Shown piece after piece: positions 2,332-25,443 of a stretch of DNA of 56,846 bases. How positions within the stretch are numbered: the first letter of the stretch is position 1; every line of letters starts with the position of its first letter. Origin of the DNA: Candidatus Cybelea sp. (GTDB lineage Bacteria; Vulcanimicrobiota; Vulcanimicrobiia; Vulcanimicrobiales; Vulcanimicrobiaceae); assembly GCA_036489315.1 (NCBI GenBank), contig DASXFZ010000008.1, positions 1-56,846 of the forward strand. The letters run 5' to 3'. The notes beneath the pieces were generated by a model. It saw nothing but the letters and a program-made list of their open reading frames with translations. It searched no databases and had not been told where the DNA came from. The position numbers were made by a program, and so were the translations under genes.

Positions 2332-4308
2332 ATGAGCGTCGCTGCCGAAAATCACATCGCGCCCGTCGAAACCCGTGAAGAGCTGCTCTACTTGCTGACG
2401 CGCGCGTCGGAGCTGGAGCACGACCTGGCATGCTCCTACTTGTATGCCGGATATTCCATTAAGATGCGTCCGGACGAAGGCGGCATTACCTACGAGGAGC
2501 TGTTGGCGATTCGCGGCTGGAAGCAGAAGATCGCGCACGTCGCGGTCGAGGAGATGCTCCACCTTGCGCAGGTTTCTAACCTTCTGACGGCGGCCGGCGG
2601 CGCGCCCCATTTCGGACGCGCGAACTTTCCCCTTGCGCCGACCGCGTTTCCGTTCGGAATCGAAATTACGCTCGAACCCCTTTCCCACGAGCTGATCGAG
2701 CGCTTCATGTGCTACGAGATGCCGGCCGACGAGGCGATTCCGGTGCATCTCCGTCCGCTCTGCGACGACATCCGCCGCCGCACGACGGCACAGATCGATC
2801 ACGACGAAATCGTTCGCCAGCAGAACGCGATCGAGCCGTTCGACGTCGACTTCCGCACGATCGGCGAATTCTATAAGAAGATCGAAACGGCGTTCGATAC
2901 GATCAGCCCCGAGCGGCTCTTCATCGGCGATCCTGCCGATCAGGCGCGCCCGGATTATCTCGATCTCCCACGCAAGCTGATCCGCGTGCACGACCGCGCC
3001 TCCGCGCATCGTGCCGTCGAGCGGATCATCGAACAGGGCGAAGCACCGCCGCGCCACCATCCCGACGCGCATTTCTACGTATTCCATTCGATCCACGAGG
3101 AGTACGAGCAGCTCGCGCAGCGCGCGAAGGCGGAGAACCGCGTCTTCGAGCCCTTCCGCAAGATGCTCGTCAATCCCATCACCCGCATCGCCGGCCCCAA
3201 TGACGGCTTGCACCGCATCACGGATGCCTCGTCACGCGAGCTCGCCGAAATCTTCAACAGCGTCTACGAATTGATGCTGATGATGCTGGCGCGCTTCTTC
3301 GCGCACGGCGGCGAAACCGAAGAACAGTTACGCCTCCTTTCGCGCGGTACGCTGCGAATGATGGCCTCCGGCCTGCGTCCGCTCGGCGAGGCACTCGCAC
3401 GGATGCCGGCCGGCCCTGAGTATCCGGGCATGACCGCGGGGCCGCCCTTCGGCATCACTCAGAACGTGCGCTTGCTATCGCACCGCAAAGCCGCCTGGAT
3501 CTTTTTCCTCGAGCGTCTCTACGATCTCTCGACACGCCTGACGAATCTCGCCACAGAGGCGACGATGCCGCAGCAAGTGCAAGAGGCCGCGGCCGCCCTC
3601 GAATCGGTCGCCGAACACCTCACGCCCTTCATTCCACCGGAATTCGCCCAGGCCGTGCGCGAGGATTGCGACGGCCGCGCCAACCGCACGAGCATCCGCC
3701 CGGAGCTTGACGGTCCGTACATCGTCCGCAACCTTCGCAAGCTCACCAATTCCAAAGGCGAGAGCTTGGACGTGCGGCCGATTCTCGCGCTCTGCCGCTG
3801 CGGCGGCTCGGCGATCAAGCCGTACTGCGACGGCACGCACGCCCGGATCAACTTCTGCAGCAACAAAAAGCCGGATCGAACGCCCGACCATCTCGATACG
3901 TATGAAACCAAAGAACTCACGGTGCTCGACAATCGCGGCACCTGCTCGCACTTCGGCAACTGCACGGAACATCTGCCCGCGGTCTTCCACGTCAAAGGCG
4001 AGCCGTTCGTGACGCCCGAGGGTGCGCCGGCCGAGCAGATCGAGGCGATCGTGAAGCAGTGTCCTTCGGGCGCGCTCGGCTTCATCAAGGAAGGCGTTCG
4101 CTATGAAGGCGAGCCGCGCGAAGCCGAGATCTTCGTGTCGCACAATCAGAGCTACTGGGTTCGCGGCGGCATCGAGCTCGAAGGCGAGCCGCGCAATCAA
4201 GGCGCGTCACTCGAGCACTACGCTCTCTGCCGGTGCGGCCATTCGAAGAACAAACCGTTCTGCGATGGTTCGCACTATTACGCGAATTTCGACGATCCCG
4301 ATAACTAA
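2332..4308 (+). CDS. Ferritin-like / CDGSH / ferredoxin-like / CDGSH fusion protein
   Basis: The protein has 658 residues and starts at the ATG following GGCGGC. Residues about 10-230 resemble the VioB-type ferritin-like (iminophenyl-pyruvate dimer synthase-like) domain: helices with E-x6-Y and EEMLH motifs (LEHDLACSYLYAGYS, AVEEMLHLAQVSNLL). A helical middle region follows. Residues about 486-508 form one CDGSH iron-sulfur site (CRCGGSAIKPYCDGTH). Residues about 535-590 form a divergent 4Fe-4S domain (TCSHFGNCTEH ... CPSGAL). A second CDGSH site closes the protein (CRCGHSKNKPFCDGSH). It is probably cytosolic, since no signal peptide is present. It likely binds a di-iron centre plus three Fe-S clusters and moves electrons or oxidises an unknown substrate. 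It stands alone with no biosynthetic neighbours. Confidence 0.88.
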   Translation: MSVAAENHIAPVETREELLYLLTRASELEHDLACSYLYAGYSIKMRPDEGGITYEELLAIRGWKQKIAHVAVEEMLHLAQVSNLLTAAGGAPHFGRANFPLAPTAFPFGIEITLEPLSHELIERFMCYEMPADEAIPVHLRPLCDDIRRRTTAQIDHDEIVRQQNAIEPFDVDFRTIGEFYKKIETAFDTISPERLFIGDPADQARPDYLDLPRKLIRVHDRASAHRAVERIIEQGEAPPRHHPDAHFYVFHSIHEEYEQLAQRAKAENRVFEPFRKMLVNPITRIAGPNDGLHRITDASSRELAEIFNSVYELMLMMLARFFAHGGETEEQLRLLSRGTLRMMASGLRPLGEALARMPAGPEYPGMTAGPPFGITQNVRLLSHRKAAWIFFLERLYDLSTRLTNLATEATMPQQVQEAAAALESVAEHLTPFIPPEFAQAVREDCDGRANRTSIRPELDGPYIVRNLRKLTNSKGESLDVRPILALCRCGGSAIKPYCDGTHARINFCSNKKPDRTPDHLDTYETKELTVLDNRGTCSHFGNCTEHLPAVFHVKGEPFVTPEGAPAEQIEAIVKQCPSGALGFIKEGVRYEGEPREAEIFVSHNQSYWVRGGIELEGEPRNQGASLEHYALCRCGHSKNKPFCDGSHYYANFDDPDN

Positions 4309-14182: not shown

Positions 14183-17100
14183 GTGGCGCACGTCATCTAT
14201 AACGGAAACGGTTCGGACGGCGGTCAGGTCCCCGTCGATTCTAACACCTACGCTGCGGGCAACAACGTCAACGTTGCCGGTAACGATTCAACCACTGCTC
14301 CACACGAGCAAAACGATTCCAATAACAACCCCGAGAACATCGTCACCGGCAATCTCTCGCGGAGCGGCGCCGTGTTTCTCTATTGGAACACGGCGCCGGA
14401 CGGCAGCGGGACGAACCACGGGTCGCCGGCCGACTCGAAGTTCAATTTTCCAAATCAGACGACGGATCTGACGCTCTATGCGGTCTGGGGCGTGACGACC
14501 GGTCTCACAAATGGCGGAGTCACAACACACTACGCATTCTTTTACGACGAGAACCTCGGCGGCCCCGGCGGCATCGAACCCGCGCGCACCAACTCGGTGA
14601 TCGGCGTCTGCGAATCCGACTTCGCTTGGCTGCAGGCGCAGTTCGCCGGCGTGGACATCACGAAGGCGATGACGCTGCCGATCCCGACCCACGTCACTGC
14701 CGTCGGCGGCGGCGCGAGTTGGGGTCCGCCGCTCACGCTCAAGCCCGGCAGCGGCGACGCAAACTCCATTCGCCCGCTTATCGTGGCTGAGGTCTCCGAG
14801 ATGTTGATGTTGGCTCAGCACAAGGGCTGGGGTTTTTCCAGCGGCGTCGGCGACGAGGAGAGCTGTGGCGAGGGCCTGTCGCTCTTCTTAACGGTGCAGT
14901 TCCAGCTCTCCCACGGGCTGAGCGGGCTCTTCAATACCGGCAGTCCGGTAAGCTGGCTCGACAGCTCGCTCCCTTCCGGAAACCCTGCTTCCACCGAGTT
15001 CGACGGAACGACGCATTACGGAGCGCGCAAGGACTACGTCAACTCCACCTTGCCGTTTCCCGGCAACGGCCCGGGTACCGGATGCTCGTTGCTTTTTATC
15101 TACTACCTCTTCCATCAGCTCGGATTCTCGATCCCAAGCATCATTGCCGCCGCACCAGGTCTCGACTCGAGCGGCAACCCGATCGACGGAGCGTGCCTGC
15201 GCGGAGTCTATCAAAACCTAACCGGCGACGCGTCCGATCCATTTCCGTACTTCGCAAGCGTATTAGCCGCAGCGTTTCCGCCGGATCAGGCCGCCTCCAT
15301 TCCCGGGCCGAACACCGACGATCCGTGGCCCCTTGGGGTACTGAGTTTCGTCGGCTCGAAGAACACGTGGGGACAAGACGAGATCCTCGACATCATCAAT
15401 CACGGAGGAGCCTACCCCGACGGGCTCTACATGGCGCTGGACGGTTTCAGCCGTAACATCGTCGGTGCAACGCTGCCGTCAGCCCCATCGATCGCATTCG
15501 GCGGCACCACCGCAGCGCGTTCGACCCAGCTTCCGAACATTTACTTCCAGAGCAGCAATCCCAAGGTCCCGCAACAGATCGTCTTCGCCTATGACGTCAA
15601 GTTCGCAAAACCGCTCGGCACCTTCCCATCGAGCGGCGAGACGCCGGCGGCGGTTACGTCGTCGATCACCGTACTCGGCAAGTCGCTCTCGGCGTCGACC
15701 GAGTTCTTTTTCCTGGCCGGCGCGGACCCGTACTTCACGAACGTCATTGCGGACCCGTCGGACCCGACAAAGCTCACGGTGCCTTGGCTCAGCGAAGACC
15801 TGCGCGTCTTCACCGCCACGCCGGGCGCGTCACAGTTTCCCGTACCCGGCGGGCCGAAGTTTGTCGAAAACAGTGCCGGTCTGGGCGATTTCGATGTCGA
15901 TGGTGCGTATACGTACGTTCAAGCGCTCTTGCAGCACCTCAATCAGAACTACGGCGATCCCGGCGGCGTCGATCCGTTCTTGCCCGGCAGCAACGTCATC
16001 CCACAGCAACAGGGCGAGTTCACCGGCGACTCGTCGGTAACGCCGTTCTCCTTCGCGAACTTTGCCTTTCACAACAACTACAGCTTCGCGATCGCCCGAG
16101 TCCGCCTGAAAGGATCGCAAGGTTCGGGGGGCGCGGCGGCCGGCGTTAAGGTGTTCTTCCGGCTCTGGGGGACGCAGACCGCCGACACGCAGTGGGACCC
16201 CTCGTCGACCTATCTGAGCAACAACGACGGGAGCGGCGACCCGCTCTGGCCGCTGGCGCCCTCCGACAATCACACGATCCCGTTCTTTGCGACGAGCGCG
16301 CAGCCGAATTTTGCCGCGTCGAACGATCCCGAGTTCAAAACCGGCGGTTTCACGAATACTGGAGCCAACAACCTAACGATCACGATCGAGCAAAGCGATG
16401 CTCAGTGGGCGTACTTCGGGTGCTTCCTCAACGTCAACGACGCCAACGCCAAGGTTAACAATGTGCCGATCCCTGACGCGCTCCCCGGGACCCATCACTG
16501 TTTGGTAGCCCAGATCGCGTACAACAACGCGCCGATCCGAACGGTGGGCAGCAGCGTGCCGACTCCGGAGAGCAGCGATCAGTTGGCCCAGCGCAACCTT
16601 CAGGTCACGACCTCGGATAACCCGGGGCCGGCCGACGCGCACCGCGTACCGCAGACCTTCGATGTAAGGCCAAGCGGCGCGCCGCCCACGAGCGGACCGC
16701 TGGCCGGGCGGCCAGACGAACTCATGATCGTGTGGGGCGACGTTCCACCCGGTTCCACCGCGCGCATCTACTGGCCGCAAGTCTCGAGCGCCGAGGTGAT
16801 TGCGCTCGCCTCTTGGATGTACGGCGTGCACCCCCTGGCCGCCGCCGATCCGCACACGATCGAAGTCAAGACCTTCAACGGTGCGACGTACGTACCGGTA
16901 CCGCAAGGAACGGGCCCGGGATTCGCCGGGCTGTTTACGATCGATCTGCCGCAAACGGTGAAGACCGGTCAGGAATTCAATATCGTCGTGCGGCGTATCG
17001 GTAAACGTTTGCGTCGCGCCGCGCCGCCTCCACCTCCGCAGGAGCCTAAAATCGCCCTCGCCCGGCGAAAAGCGGCCGGCCGTAACATCGACCTCCCGGA

Positions 17101-17638
17101 GCAGATCGTGCCGCAAGCGCAGAGTTTGCAGCGCGATGTCTATCGAGAAAGCCTGGAGTACGAACGCTACATTGTCGGCTCATTTCAAGTGAAGATCCCC
17201 GTCTCCACCAGCGAGAAGATGCTGCCGGCTGAGGAGACAACGCTGGCCATCCTCAAGGCGCGGCTCGAGGCCATGCCCAAAACGGATCGCTGGTATCCGG
17301 TCCTGCTCCGCTACATCGGCCAGATCAGCCAGCGCGTACAAGGGCTGGGCGGCGACCCGCACAGCATCCCGCCGTCGCTTGGTGGTTACCGTCCCGATCA
17401 GCCGTCGGGCAGCCAAACCTGTGAAGAGTTCACCGGCAAGGTCTGCGAGGTTGAGTTCAACTGCTTCGGTGATTTCGTCGGCTTCGTGCTCAAGGATTGC
17501 TGCGAACGCCGCGTCTTCGAATGCCGCGAGCGAGACCTCGGCGAGCTGGTTCTCCGCGCGCTCAAGGAGCGGCTTAGCGTAACGGTTGCCGTCGCCGGCA
17601 AGGAGCGCAAACTTGTGCGCCTGATCGTTACGAGATAA
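14183..17638 (+). CDS. Large uncharacterised protein with N-terminal InlB/Listeria-Bacteroides repeat
   Basis: The 1151-residue product starts at GTG after GAGGAGGC. Residues 1-105 match one Listeria-Bacteroides (Flg_new) repeat: NGNG..GG.VP, LYWNTAPDGSGT and LTLYAVWG. No signal peptide or membrane span is visible. Residues about 190-380 have a layout like a gluzincin peptidase (helix AEVSEMLMLAQHKGWG, then GEGLSLFL and LFIYYLFHQLGFSI), but the HExxH motif is absent. Residues about 620-950 are beta-rich and contain CLVAQIAYNNAPI and SDQLAQRNLQV. The basic, proline-rich linker (RLRRAAPPPPPQEPK) leads to a helical C-terminal part with a six-cysteine cluster (17421-17550). Function unknown; it precedes a multicopper oxidase gene. 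Confidence 0.8.
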   Translation: MAHVIYNGNGSDGGQVPVDSNTYAAGNNVNVAGNDSTTAPHEQNDSNNNPENIVTGNLSRSGAVFLYWNTAPDGSGTNHGSPADSKFNFPNQTTDLTLYAVWGVTTGLTNGGVTTHYAFFYDENLGGPGGIEPARTNSVIGVCESDFAWLQAQFAGVDITKAMTLPIPTHVTAVGGGASWGPPLTLKPGSGDANSIRPLIVAEVSEMLMLAQHKGWGFSSGVGDEESCGEGLSLFLTVQFQLSHGLSGLFNTGSPVSWLDSSLPSGNPASTEFDGTTHYGARKDYVNSTLPFPGNGPGTGCSLLFIYYLFHQLGFSIPSIIAAAPGLDSSGNPIDGACLRGVYQNLTGDASDPFPYFASVLAAAFPPDQAASIPGPNTDDPWPLGVLSFVGSKNTWGQDEILDIINHGGAYPDGLYMALDGFSRNIVGATLPSAPSIAFGGTTAARSTQLPNIYFQSSNPKVPQQIVFAYDVKFAKPLGTFPSSGETPAAVTSSITVLGKSLSASTEFFFLAGADPYFTNVIADPSDPTKLTVPWLSEDLRVFTATPGASQFPVPGGPKFVENSAGLGDFDVDGAYTYVQALLQHLNQNYGDPGGVDPFLPGSNVIPQQQGEFTGDSSVTPFSFANFAFHNNYSFAIARVRLKGSQGSGGAAAGVKVFFRLWGTQTADTQWDPSSTYLSNNDGSGDPLWPLAPSDNHTIPFFATSAQPNFAASNDPEFKTGGFTNTGANNLTITIEQSDAQWAYFGCFLNVNDANAKVNNVPIPDALPGTHHCLVAQIAYNNAPIRTVGSSVPTPESSDQLAQRNLQVTTSDNPGPADAHRVPQTFDVRPSGAPPTSGPLAGRPDELMIVWGDVPPGSTARIYWPQVSSAEVIALASWMYGVHPLAAADPHTIEVKTFNGATYVPVPQGTGPGFAGLFTIDLPQTVKTGQEFNIVVRRIGKRLRRAAPPPPPQEPKIALARRKAAGRNIDLPEQIVPQAQSLQRDVYRESLEYERYIVGSFQVKIPVSTSEKMLPAEETTLAILKARLEAMPKTDRWYPVLLRYIGQISQRVQGLGGDPHSIPPSLGGYRPDQPSGSQTCEEFTGKVCEVEFNCFGDFVGFVLKDCCERRVFECRERDLGELVLRALKERLSVTVAVAGKERKLVRLIVTR

Positions 17639-17754: not shown

Positions 17755-18900
17755 ATGCGCACTCTTTGTGTCAGCGTCTTCTTTTTGTTAGTCGTACTGG
17801 TGGGCAGTACGAGCGTCGAACGCGCCGTCGGTCAGGTGCGAACCTACTACATTGCCGCCGACGAGGTGACGTGGAACTACGCGCCGGCCGGCATCGACGA
17901 GGTTACCGGCAAGCCGCTCGACGCGATGGAGCGCCCGTACGCGGTGCAAGACTCGCACCACATCGGCAGCAGCTACCGCAAGGCGATCTATCGGGAATAT
18001 ACCGACGCCACGTTCACGACGCAAAAGCAGCGTCCGGCCGGCGATGCGTATCTCGGCTTTGTCGGGCCGATCATCCACGCCGAAGTCGGCGACACGATTC
18101 ACGTCGTCTTCAAGAACAACGCCTCGCGCCCGTACAGCATTCACCCGCACGGCGTCTTCTACGAGAAGAACGCTGAAGGCATGGCATACAACGACGGCAG
18201 CTCGTCGACCGACAAAATGAGCGGCGCGGTCGCGCCGGGCCGGACGTACACCTACGTGTGGCAGGTTCCCGAACGCGCCGGGCCCGGTCCCAACGACCCG
18301 AGTTCAATCGTTTGGCTCTACCACTCGCACGTCAACGAGCAGAAGGACGTCGATAGCGGTTTAGTCGGTGCGATCGTCGTGACCGCGCGCGGCATGGCCA
18401 AACCGGACGGCACGCCCAAGGACGTCGATCGCGAAGTCGTAGCGGTCTACCACATCGTCAACGAAAATCAGAGCTGGTACTTCATGAATAACGTCGCGAC
18501 GTACACGCCGAAACTAAAGAAACCGCAGCGAGCCGAGTCGATCCCGCTCGACTCCAACGGGGCCTTCACCCTCAACGGCAGCGGCTTCGTCGACGGCAAC
18601 TTCAAGTTTTCGATCAACGGCTACATCTATGCAAACGGCCCGAAGATCACGATGAAGCAGGGCGAGCGCGTGCGCTGGTACGTGGTCGACATCGGCAACG
18701 GCTTCGATTTCCACACGCCGCACTGGCACGGCAACACCGTGCTATGGAATAAGCAGAGAACCGACGTGCTCGCGTTGATGCCCGCGCAGATGCTGACCGT
18801 CGACATGGTTCCCGACGATCCCGGGACCTGGCTCTTCCACTGTCACGTCGCCGACCACATGGACGGCGGCATGAGCGCCTTCTATCAGGTAATTCCGTAA
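17755..18900 (+). CDS. Two-domain multicopper oxidase (exported)
   Basis: The 381-residue protein has a signal peptide (MRTLCVSVFFLLVVLVGSTS) and two cupredoxin domains. Copper motifs are HPHGVF (His about 130), YHSH in domain 1, HTPHWHGN in domain 2 (about 319-325), and the C-terminal HCHVADHMDGGM, where Cys363, His368 and Met373 would form the type 1 site. Domain 1 lacks the type 1 cysteine, so this is a small-laccase or ceruloplasmin-like two-domain oxidase that should work as a trimer. It oxidises a phenolic or metal substrate (for example Fe(II) or Mn(II)) in the periplasm or outside. The start has GGAGGG-type sequence upstream. Confidence 0.92.
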   Translation: MRTLCVSVFFLLVVLVGSTSVERAVGQVRTYYIAADEVTWNYAPAGIDEVTGKPLDAMERPYAVQDSHHIGSSYRKAIYREYTDATFTTQKQRPAGDAYLGFVGPIIHAEVGDTIHVVFKNNASRPYSIHPHGVFYEKNAEGMAYNDGSSSTDKMSGAVAPGRTYTYVWQVPERAGPGPNDPSSIVWLYHSHVNEQKDVDSGLVGAIVVTARGMAKPDGTPKDVDREVVAVYHIVNENQSWYFMNNVATYTPKLKKPQRAESIPLDSNGAFTLNGSGFVDGNFKFSINGYIYANGPKITMKQGERVRWYVVDIGNGFDFHTPHWHGNTVLWNKQRTDVLALMPAQMLTVDMVPDDPGTWLFHCHVADHMDGGMSAFYQVIP

Positions 18901-22517: not shown

Positions 22518-23873
22518 ATGAATCGTCTTTATTCAGCACGCCTTGCGGTGCTGCTGGCGTTCACATTCCCGCTCGCGGCATGCTCGGGCGGCCTCCCGTA
22601 CATGCAAAACGGCAACCCGCTGCACCACCTCACCGGAACAGGTGCCGGCAAGATTACCCACGTCGTCTACATCGTGCAAGAGAACCGCAGCTTCGACGAC
22701 CTGTTCCACGGTTATCCGGGTGCCGATACCGTCGACAGCGGCGCCATCTCCACCGGTGAGAAGATCAAGCTGCGCCCGGTGCCGCTGAGCGATCAGTACG
22801 TGATCGACCACTCGGCCGACGCGATGTTCGCCGCCTGCAACGCGCCCAAGGGCGAACTGCCGGGCACGCACTGCCGGATGAATGGCTTCAACAACGAAGA
22901 GAGTTTCGGCGGTCCATTTCTTTACCCGGAGTACGCCTACGTGCCTCGCAGAGACTCGCAGCCCTACTTCGATATGGCGCACGAAGGCGTTTTGGCCGAC
23001 CGGATGTTCCAATCGCAGCTTGATGAGAGCTTCGTCGCGCACCAGTACATCATCGCCGCGCAGGCCGCCTGGAGCGTCGACCTGCCCTACAGCAAGTGGG
23101 GCTGCGGCGGCGGCCGTTATAACAAGGTTGCGACGATCACGATCGATCGCAACCCCAACGGGACGCCGCAGCCGCCCTGTTTCGAATATCAGACGCTCGG
23201 CGACGAGCTCGATGCTGCGCACCTCTCGTGGCGCTTCTACGCGAGCAGTTACGGCAGTGAGTCGAGCGGAAGCGGCGGAGTCTGGTCGAGTTATCAGGCC
23301 GTCGCACACATCTATCGCGGCCCCGATTGGAAGAAGAACGTCATCTCCCCGAACTGGAAATTCCTCACCGACGTTCGCGCCGGCAAGCTCGCGAACTTTA
23401 CCTGGATAACGCCGGTCTGCGACGACTCCGACCACGTAAACTGCCCCGGCGGCTACGGGCCGTCGTGGGTCGCAGCGTTGGTGAACGCCGTCGGTCAGAG
23501 TAAATTCTGGAACTCTACCGCGATCTTCATTCAGTGGGACGACTGGGGCGGCTTGTACGATCACGTCGCGCCCGCCCACCTCGATCGCGACAGTTTGGGC
23601 TTTCGTGTTCCGCTGATCGTGATGTCGCCGTACGCCAAACAGGGCTTCGTGTCGCACGTGCCCTACGAAACCGCGAGCGTCTTGCGCTTCGCCGAGGATC
23701 TTTACGGCCTTGGGCAGCTCGCTCCGGCCGATCGGCGCGCAGCCTCTCCGGCCGCCGACTGCTTTGATTTCAACGCCAGCCCGCGCAAATTCGTGAAGAT
23801 TGCGGCGCCATTGCCGCCGAAGTTCTTCATGGATCGGTCGGGCGACACCGATTTCGCACCCGATTACGAATAA
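22518..23873 (+). CDS. Phosphoesterase family lipoprotein (acid phosphatase / phospholipase C-like)
   Basis: The product has 451 residues with a lipoprotein signal (LLAFTFPLAAC). It belongs to the PF04185-type phosphoesterases: HVVYIVQENRSFDDLFHGYPG at about residue 50 gives the metal-binding Glu-Asn, and WDDWGGLYDHVAP at about residue 340 is the second conserved block. FRVPLIVMSPYAKQGFVSH also matches the family. It should hydrolyse phosphate esters (acid phosphatase or phospholipase C) at the cell surface. A paralogue is at 27853-29187 on the other strand. The next gene starts 13 bases after its stop. Confidence 0.92.
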   Translation: MNRLYSARLAVLLAFTFPLAACSGGLPYMQNGNPLHHLTGTGAGKITHVVYIVQENRSFDDLFHGYPGADTVDSGAISTGEKIKLRPVPLSDQYVIDHSADAMFAACNAPKGELPGTHCRMNGFNNEESFGGPFLYPEYAYVPRRDSQPYFDMAHEGVLADRMFQSQLDESFVAHQYIIAAQAAWSVDLPYSKWGCGGGRYNKVATITIDRNPNGTPQPPCFEYQTLGDELDAAHLSWRFYASSYGSESSGSGGVWSSYQAVAHIYRGPDWKKNVISPNWKFLTDVRAGKLANFTWITPVCDDSDHVNCPGGYGPSWVAALVNAVGQSKFWNSTAIFIQWDDWGGLYDHVAPAHLDRDSLGFRVPLIVMSPYAKQGFVSHVPYETASVLRFAEDLYGLGQLAPADRRAASPAADCFDFNASPRKFVKIAAPLPPKFFMDRSGDTDFAPDYE

Positions 23874-23886
23874 GAATGGAGGTCCC

Positions 23887-25443
23887 GTGCTTCGCTACTT
23901 CAGGAACTCTGCGTCTCTCTTAGCCGCGGCGACGCTCGCCGCCGCCGCGTCCGGGTGCTCCGGCAGCCAATCGATGCTGCCCGGCGCAGGGACGCAATTG
24001 CTCGGCGCGCTCGGCGCGAGCCGCTCGGCGCAGTTCGCGTTGGTCAGGAGTCAGCCGCCGGCGCCGATGATGATCGGCTTTTTGATGACCGACGGTTCGG
24101 TTCTCACTCAAGATATCTATGGCAGCAACTGGTATCGCTACGCACCCGATTCGAAGGGCAGCTATACCGACGGAACCTGGTCGCAGCTCGCGTCGCTGCA
24201 AGCCGGGTACGGGCCTTCGGCGTACGCCTCGCAGGTGCTCGCCGACGGCCGCCTGATGATCAGCGGCGGCGAATACAACAATCCGAGCAACGGGTATCCG
24301 CTGCAGTTGACCGATCTCGGTGCGGTCTACGACCCGGTGAAGAACACCTGGACGCCGCTGGGCCATCCGCACCGCTGGCAGTGGATCGGCGACTCACCTT
24401 CGACCATTTTGCCCGATGGGCGCGTCATGATGGGCGACAAGCTTCATCACTGGGATGCGTTCCTCGATCCCAAGACGCTGAAGTGGTCGCAGGCCAGCGA
24501 CGCCGGCAAGGCCGACTTCAACTCCGAGGAAGGCTGGACGCTTTTGCCCGACGGGACGATCCTCACCGCCGACGTGAAGAACGCTCCGCACTCTGAGATC
24601 TACAATCCGGCGACCGGCCATTGGAGGAGTGCCGGCTCGACGGTCGTCGATCTGCGCTCTCCGGGCGAGCCGGGCTGTGTGAAGTACGGGCCGAAGCCAA
24701 AAGACTGCTATCGCCCGCCGGGCGAGATCGGTCCGGCGATTCTGCGCCCCGACGGCACCGTCTTCGCAACCGGCGCGGGTACGGGACCGAGCGGCTACGG
24801 CACCGGGCACACCGCAATTTACGGCACAAAGAACGGTACGTGGGCCGCAGGCCCTGATTTTCCCAACAACGACAACGCCGGCGATTCGTACGCGATGCTC
24901 GAGCCCAGCGGAAACGTTTTGGTGTTGAGCATCCACTACATTCTCTACGAGTACAATGGTAAGAGCTTTGCGCAGGTCGGCACCGCCGCGGGGCCGCCCG
25001 TGCTGTTGCCGACGGGACAGGTGCTGATGCTCGGCTCGAGCGGAGTCGTGCTCTACACCCCCAAGGGCAAGCCGCAAGCCGGCTGGGCGCCCACGATCTC
25101 AAACGCGCCCGCCAGCATCACGCCCGGCAAAACGTATAAGATCACGGGAACGCAGTTTAATGGCCTCTCGCAAGCAGTTGCGTTCGGCGACGAAGAGCAG
25201 AACGCGACCGGTTATCCGCTGGTGCGCATAACAAATGACGGCAGCGGCAAGATCTACTATGCTCGCACGCACGACCACAGCACGATGGGCGTCGCGACCG
25301 GGTCGAAGAGAGTCTGGACCTACTTCGACGTGCCGAAGAAGATCGCGAGCGGGAAGAGCACGCTCGTGGTCGTCGCCAACGGCATTGCCTCGAAACCGGT
25401 CAGCGTTACCGTGGGGGCCGAGGCTCGGCGAAAAGCGCTATAG
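23887..25443 (+). CDS. Kelch/galactose-oxidase-like propeller lipoprotein
   Basis: The GTG at 23887 is chosen because GGAGG lies just before it; it gives 518 residues. The lipobox is SGC at about residue 24. The propeller shows repeated strands VLADGRLMISGGEY, ILPDGRVMMGDK, LLPDGTILTADV, LRPDGTVFATGAG, LEPSGNVLVLSIH and LLPTGQVLMLGSS. The C-terminal Ig-like domain (APTISNAPASITPGKTYKIT ... YYARTHDHSTMGVA) resembles the cap domain of galactose oxidase. The copper ligands typical of true galactose oxidase were not identified. It is probably co-transcribed with the phosphoesterase. Likely a surface binding or enzyme-like protein; substrate unknown. Confidence 0.85.
   Translation: MLRYFRNSASLLAAATLAAAASGCSGSQSMLPGAGTQLLGALGASRSAQFALVRSQPPAPMMIGFLMTDGSVLTQDIYGSNWYRYAPDSKGSYTDGTWSQLASLQAGYGPSAYASQVLADGRLMISGGEYNNPSNGYPLQLTDLGAVYDPVKNTWTPLGHPHRWQWIGDSPSTILPDGRVMMGDKLHHWDAFLDPKTLKWSQASDAGKADFNSEEGWTLLPDGTILTADVKNAPHSEIYNPATGHWRSAGSTVVDLRSPGEPGCVKYGPKPKDCYRPPGEIGPAILRPDGTVFATGAGTGPSGYGTGHTAIYGTKNGTWAAGPDFPNNDNAGDSYAMLEPSGNVLVLSIHYILYEYNGKSFAQVGTAAGPPVLLPTGQVLMLGSSGVVLYTPKGKPQAGWAPTISNAPASITPGKTYKITGTQFNGLSQAVAFGDEEQNATGYPLVRITNDGSGKIYYARTHDHSTMGVATGSKRVWTYFDVPKKIASGKSTLVVVANGIASKPVSVTVGAEARRKAL

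Follow-up and report, generated by a model that had tools for sequence, protein, structure and literature searches.

What kind of protein is encoded at positions 14183-17638 of the window, the stretch of 56,846 nucleotides of Candidatus Cybelea sp. DNA analysed here, and where does it act? A preliminary description of this locus reported an architecture that it did not recognise, and suggested that the protein acts at the cell surface together with the multicopper oxidase encoded by the next gene. We found that, indeed, neither half of the protein matches a family in Pfam, NCBIfam, PHROGs or PADLOC, or a PDB sequence; our comparisons indicate, moreover, that the halves are two separate, undescribed protein families, and that the protein is a fusion of them and not a single architecture. 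The anatomy of the protein is secure, while its mechanism is what we infer.

The gene and the parts of its product

The open reading frame is a real gene, on the plus strand, encoding 1151 residues as originally reported. The Shine-Dalgarno sequence AGAGGAGG precedes its GTG start codon, a Nocardioides MAG (L012) carries a full-length homologue that is 60% identical, and the differences between the two genes fall mostly on the third codon position (0.27/0.25/0.51 per codon position). The gene is present as a single copy in its own genome. An in-frame stop lies 5 codons 5' of the start, and no upstream signal peptide has been overlooked, because the open frame comprises only 1156 codons. The features of the locus are as follows.

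14183..17638, + strand: whole gene, 1151 aa, GTG start (ORF, Shine-Dalgarno, full-length homologue L012)
14183..14491, + strand: single, sub-threshold InlB-like (Listeria-Bacteroides) repeat, residues 1-103 (PF09479, 17.5 bits; common to L012 only)
14480..15340, + strand: AExxE/GExxS domain, putatively pseudo-peptidase-like in fold, residues 100-386 (independent family, 24 members compared)
14786..14803, + strand: AEVSEM, residues 202-207, where HExxH would stand (family alignment)
14867..14881, + strand: GEGLS, residues 229-233 (family alignment)
15341..17635, + strand: shared C-terminal module (core), residues 387-1151 (14 proteins with unrelated heads; alignment A1)
16991..17152, + strand: basic proline-rich linker, residues ~937-990 (sequence; alignment A1)
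17162..17362, + strand: conserved segment, residues ~994-1060, second half predicted helical (alignment A1; pLDDT ~45-63)
17408..17635, + strand: predicted OB-fold, residues 1076-1151, with Cys 1080, 1088, 1094, 1106, 1107 and 1114 (pLDDT 52-81; Z 9.4 to 8bwv)
17755..18900, + strand: multicopper oxidase with signal peptide (PF07731/PF07732; missing at other loci)

Sequence searches of PDB, Pfam, NCBIfam, phages and IMG/VR gave no result for the two families, and the window protein had no match in PHROGs or PADLOC up to E 0.1. The InlB-type repeat said to open the protein is plausible, although it was not returned by the Pfam or NCBIfam scans and its match to PF09479 at 14309-14485 reaches 17.5 bits (E 0.012), where the cut-off is 27. 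It resembles InlB B-repeats in its YNGNG...FxYWNTxxDGSGT...LTLYAVWG run, and differs from them in being one copy with an insertion; among the homologues, only L012 has it too.

A rare C-terminal module behind different heads

A search with the whole protein against 149 genomes of the phylum matched residues 386-1147 in five genomes, the genome of origin included, and residues 103-385 alone in two. When the C-terminal module was aligned and the alignment (A1) was used for profile searches, the module was found in 5 of the 149 genomes of its own phylum, in 5 of 347 genomes around a Terriglobia MAG (L013) and in 3 of 396 around the Nocardioides MAG, one of these three being a 59-position fragment; it also occurs on a Paraburkholderia plasmid, and Paraburkholderia sprentiae WSM5005 is a cultured carrier. 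The module is thus rare and patchy in occurrence. In total, the 765 residues corresponding to 387-1151 were seen in 14 proteins, joined to N-terminal parts of at least seven kinds. The AExxE domain heads the window protein, L012 and L041; a LodA domain heads L017 (PF17990, E 4e-52); and the Pfam and NCBIfam scans named BNR repeats in L013 and L016 and kelch repeats in L018 and L043. L045 has a galactose-oxidase-like head that matches GlxA (NF052501) with 138 bits, below cut-off. Weaker assignments are a tyrosinase-like head in L044 (E 0.003, below cut-off), and a ThuA-like head in L015 (E 0.04), to which L014 is homologous. L021 has an HExxE peptidase-like head, recognised by eye from its HEIAE motif. 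The same scans named no family for the head of L042.

L013 and L016 share 56% identity in their BNR heads and 41% in their cores, and the core tree places L016 next to the HExxE-headed L021 (98/97) and L013 beside the clade of the window protein (100/100). Because the relatedness of the BNR heads disagrees with that of the cores, the simplest reading of these comparisons is that heads have been swapped behind a common core. Large fusions of LodA to other domains have already been described, and the module is not among the LodA-fused domains in the part of PMC4417212 used here. While LodA/GoxA quinoprotein oxidases (PF17990, PF18417) share with our system the LodA domain that heads the module in L017, the window protein has no such domain; similarly, GlxA/galactose-oxidase-like radical copper oxidases resemble the heads of L018, L043 and L045 (kelch, GO-like_E_set, GlxA), and the head of the window protein is a different one. 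A stand-alone Kelch protein that lacks the module is encoded in the window at 23800-25443 (+), about 6 kb away from the gene studied here; its identity to the L018 and L043 heads is 31-34%.

The AlphaFold model of the module, built from an alignment of 3 sequences (the window protein, L012 and L013), has a pLDDT of 32.9, and only its last ~75 residues are usable. A beta-rich centre, as proposed earlier, is plausible only; PAD-like structural matches to core residues 415-627 (Z ~7) were set aside, as the pLDDT of the model is mostly <50 there. The basic proline-rich linker is directly visible in the sequence and variable among homologues. The C-terminal 76 residues look like an OB-fold in the model: they are predicted as a beta-beta-beta-alpha-beta barrel, and their best structural match is the OB-fold chain 8bwv (rmsd 2.1 Å over 69 residues, 14% identity). 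Since this fold is common, no function follows from the match, and the toxin B-subunits that appear among the OB-fold matches share a common fold and nothing more. The six cysteines reported for this region are present between residues 1080 and 1114. Five of their positions recur in L041 (TGKVC...DCFGDF...DCC...HC), not in the nearest homologue L012, and many other module proteins have a His-rich stretch directly before the OB-like domain instead of cysteines, features that could mean metal binding. The OB-like tail domain also occurs alone, after a very His-rich N-terminus, in a 126-aa protein (L067, G124:C145, 9066-9446, minus strand) that has no signal peptide; a contractile sheath gene lies ~44 kb away on the same contig.

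Where the module proteins act

The lack of a secretion signal extends well beyond the window protein. Its first 60-70 residues contain no hydrophobic stretch, and signal peptides were found neither in the 14 module proteins nor in 18 further proteins related to the head domain, so that homologues with a normal signal peptide, which would have spoken against the preliminary description, were not encountered in this set. We tentatively favour a modular, signal-peptide-less protein that would be released by a non-classical route, act extracellularly or at the cell surface, and carry a binding head. The 765-residue module would then be a common scaffold, perhaps a carrier or an anchor, to which evolution adds different heads. 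All 14 module proteins have a composition like that of the signal-peptide proteins of the same genomes (P 0.62-1.00) in a small classifier (leave-one-out accuracy 87%) trained on 63 neighbour proteins, of which 20 had a signal peptide and 43 had none, as judged from hydrophobicity alone. This secreted-like composition is suggestive only of an extracellular location. Several kinds of head, namely BNR, kelch/GlxA-like, tyrosinase-like and LodA, come from families that are generally regarded as extracellular. The LodA relative GoxA, which has a Tat signal, was found in culture supernatant (PMC3948610).

Several points count against extracellular action. Proteins without signal peptides are cytoplasmic by default, composition is weak evidence, no export system was identified, and the genome of origin has no contractile sheath. 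The all-against-all comparison of neighbourhoods gave no conserved export neighbour, and the literature on Eremiobacterota secretion yielded nothing relevant. It is conceivable, if rather unlikely, that these are cytoplasmic proteins in which the module serves as an intracellular scaffold or storage device and the heads work inside, release occurring by lysis only. The absence of signal peptides and membrane segments from the 14 core homologues and the 18 other head relatives agrees with a cytoplasmic location, as does the free-standing, His-rich tail relative of 126 residues, whereas the secreted-like composition of all 14 proteins and the usually extracellular families of several heads, GoxA among their relatives, argue against it.

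A head family without HExxH

The head of the window protein belongs to a family that profile searches extend to Acidobacteriota-side genomes, Bradyrhizobium plasmids, its own phylum and one more Nocardioides-side genome. In an alignment of 24 members, HExxH is absent from all, the window protein (AEVSEM) included. Position 202 is A in 17 members, S in five, and N or M otherwise; E203 is kept in 23 of the 24 and E206 in every one, giving ExxE in 23. G229 and S233 are invariant, and position 230 is E in 23 and D in one, so that G[ED]xxS is found throughout. AEVSEM at the place of HExxH was thus correctly noted and is conserved as the AExxE motif of the family, and the alignment indicates that losing both histidines is a family rule rather than the decay of one enzyme. 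GEGLS is likewise present and conserved; contrary to the earlier proposal that it replaces the third-ligand motif, however, the putative third-ligand glutamate is retained as E230, its equivalence to the gluzincin ligand in an EG(L/F)xxY-like motif being a question of structure. Lacking the two zinc-binding histidines of HExxH, the head cannot act as a classical zinc peptidase. Small signal-peptide-less AExxE/GExxS proteins also occur in up to 6 copies per genome within a single distant family of the phylum (L076-L085, in G007 and G008).

By eye, the layout of the head would fit descent from Peptidase MA-like gluzincins (PF13485, Peptidase_MA_2): the apparent succession of a strand, a helix, the active-site helix, an EGLxxY-like motif and later helices with FxxYL...G resembles theirs, and the third-motif glutamate is kept. 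The two differ in the HExxH histidines, missing in 24 of 24 members, and at the profile level, where the head family, compared by hhalign with a single genuine Peptidase_MA_2 protein, scored no better than shuffles. Neither hhalign against the HExxE head of L021 nor searches of Pfam and PDB sequences gave a match to the family, the AlphaFold model of the N-terminal part has a mean pLDDT of 30.5 from an alignment of 2 sequences, and the literature on pseudo-gluzincins held nothing relevant. That a peptidase fold of the head is no more than putative counts against our preferred reading of the protein.

In our preferred reading of a protein with a binding head, the AExxE/GExxS domain would bind a ligand instead of cleaving it, and this ligand might be a protein, a peptide or, via the three conserved acids, another metal. 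It is improbable that the head is instead a functional metallo-enzyme of a novel type, in which ExxE and the glutamate of GExxS bind a non-zinc metal for catalysis. Across distant lineages, nearly all members retain the three acids, more than a purely structural role would demand, but no homologous enzyme was found, the usual ligand places are without histidine, and no tool that we used predicted metal binding. A more far-reaching proposal, in which the module is a universal carrier for an undescribed, signal-peptide-independent route across several phyla and the AExxE head a new class of binding domain, or of metal site built from acids alone without histidines, strikes us as equally improbable.

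Contractile injection and the neighbouring oxidase

A contractile sheath is present in 5 of the 12 genomes with the module, and in one of them (G122:C84, 19966-44451; L017, L065, L066) a cluster resembling a contractile injection system lies on the same contig as the gene for the LodA-headed protein and stops ~2 kb away from it. Module proteins might on this basis travel as cargo in extracellular contractile injection systems, with the module as the loading part and the heads as payloads. This we regard as very unlikely: PF04984, the one sheath family searched, has no match in the genome of origin, which is 95% complete, and the sheath is also missing from six other carriers (G042, G107, G149, G150, G367 and G482), so that contractile injection was rejected as a general route; inspection by eye revealed no contractile genes around the other homologues.

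The next gene 3' does encode a two-domain multicopper oxidase with a signal peptide, on the same strand, after a 116-bp gap within which no terminator was called, but the suggestion that the two proteins form a functional pair at the cell surface has hardly any probability left, as no such oxidase lies near any other homologue fetched, the nearest (L012) included. In some Bradyrhizobium operons, genes for LodA-like proteins, tyrosinases and multicopper oxidases are found together (PMC4417212); such enzymes can travel together, but this lends no support to the pair in the window. The only recurring neighbour in the all-against-all comparison was a BNR/Vps10-like gene, found close to the module gene at two of the three loci with an AExxE head (L012, 4744-5832; L041, 10734-11936) and not seen in the window. 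Elsewhere in the window, at 2332-4308 (+), lies a gene for a 658-aa protein without signal peptide that combines ferritin-like (PF12902), divergent 4Fe-4S (PF06902) and CDGSH iron-sulfur (PF09360) domains.

Implications

If the module takes proteins out of the cell, it would represent a secretion route of uncultured soil bacteria that signal-peptide predictors miss, and it would be a portable tag. Even without a role in export, our analysis defines two protein families new to Pfam and NCBIfam. In one of them, the head family, both HExxH histidines have been lost lineage-wide while the acids were kept, which would make it a clear example on which to test how a peptidase-like domain becomes a binding domain.
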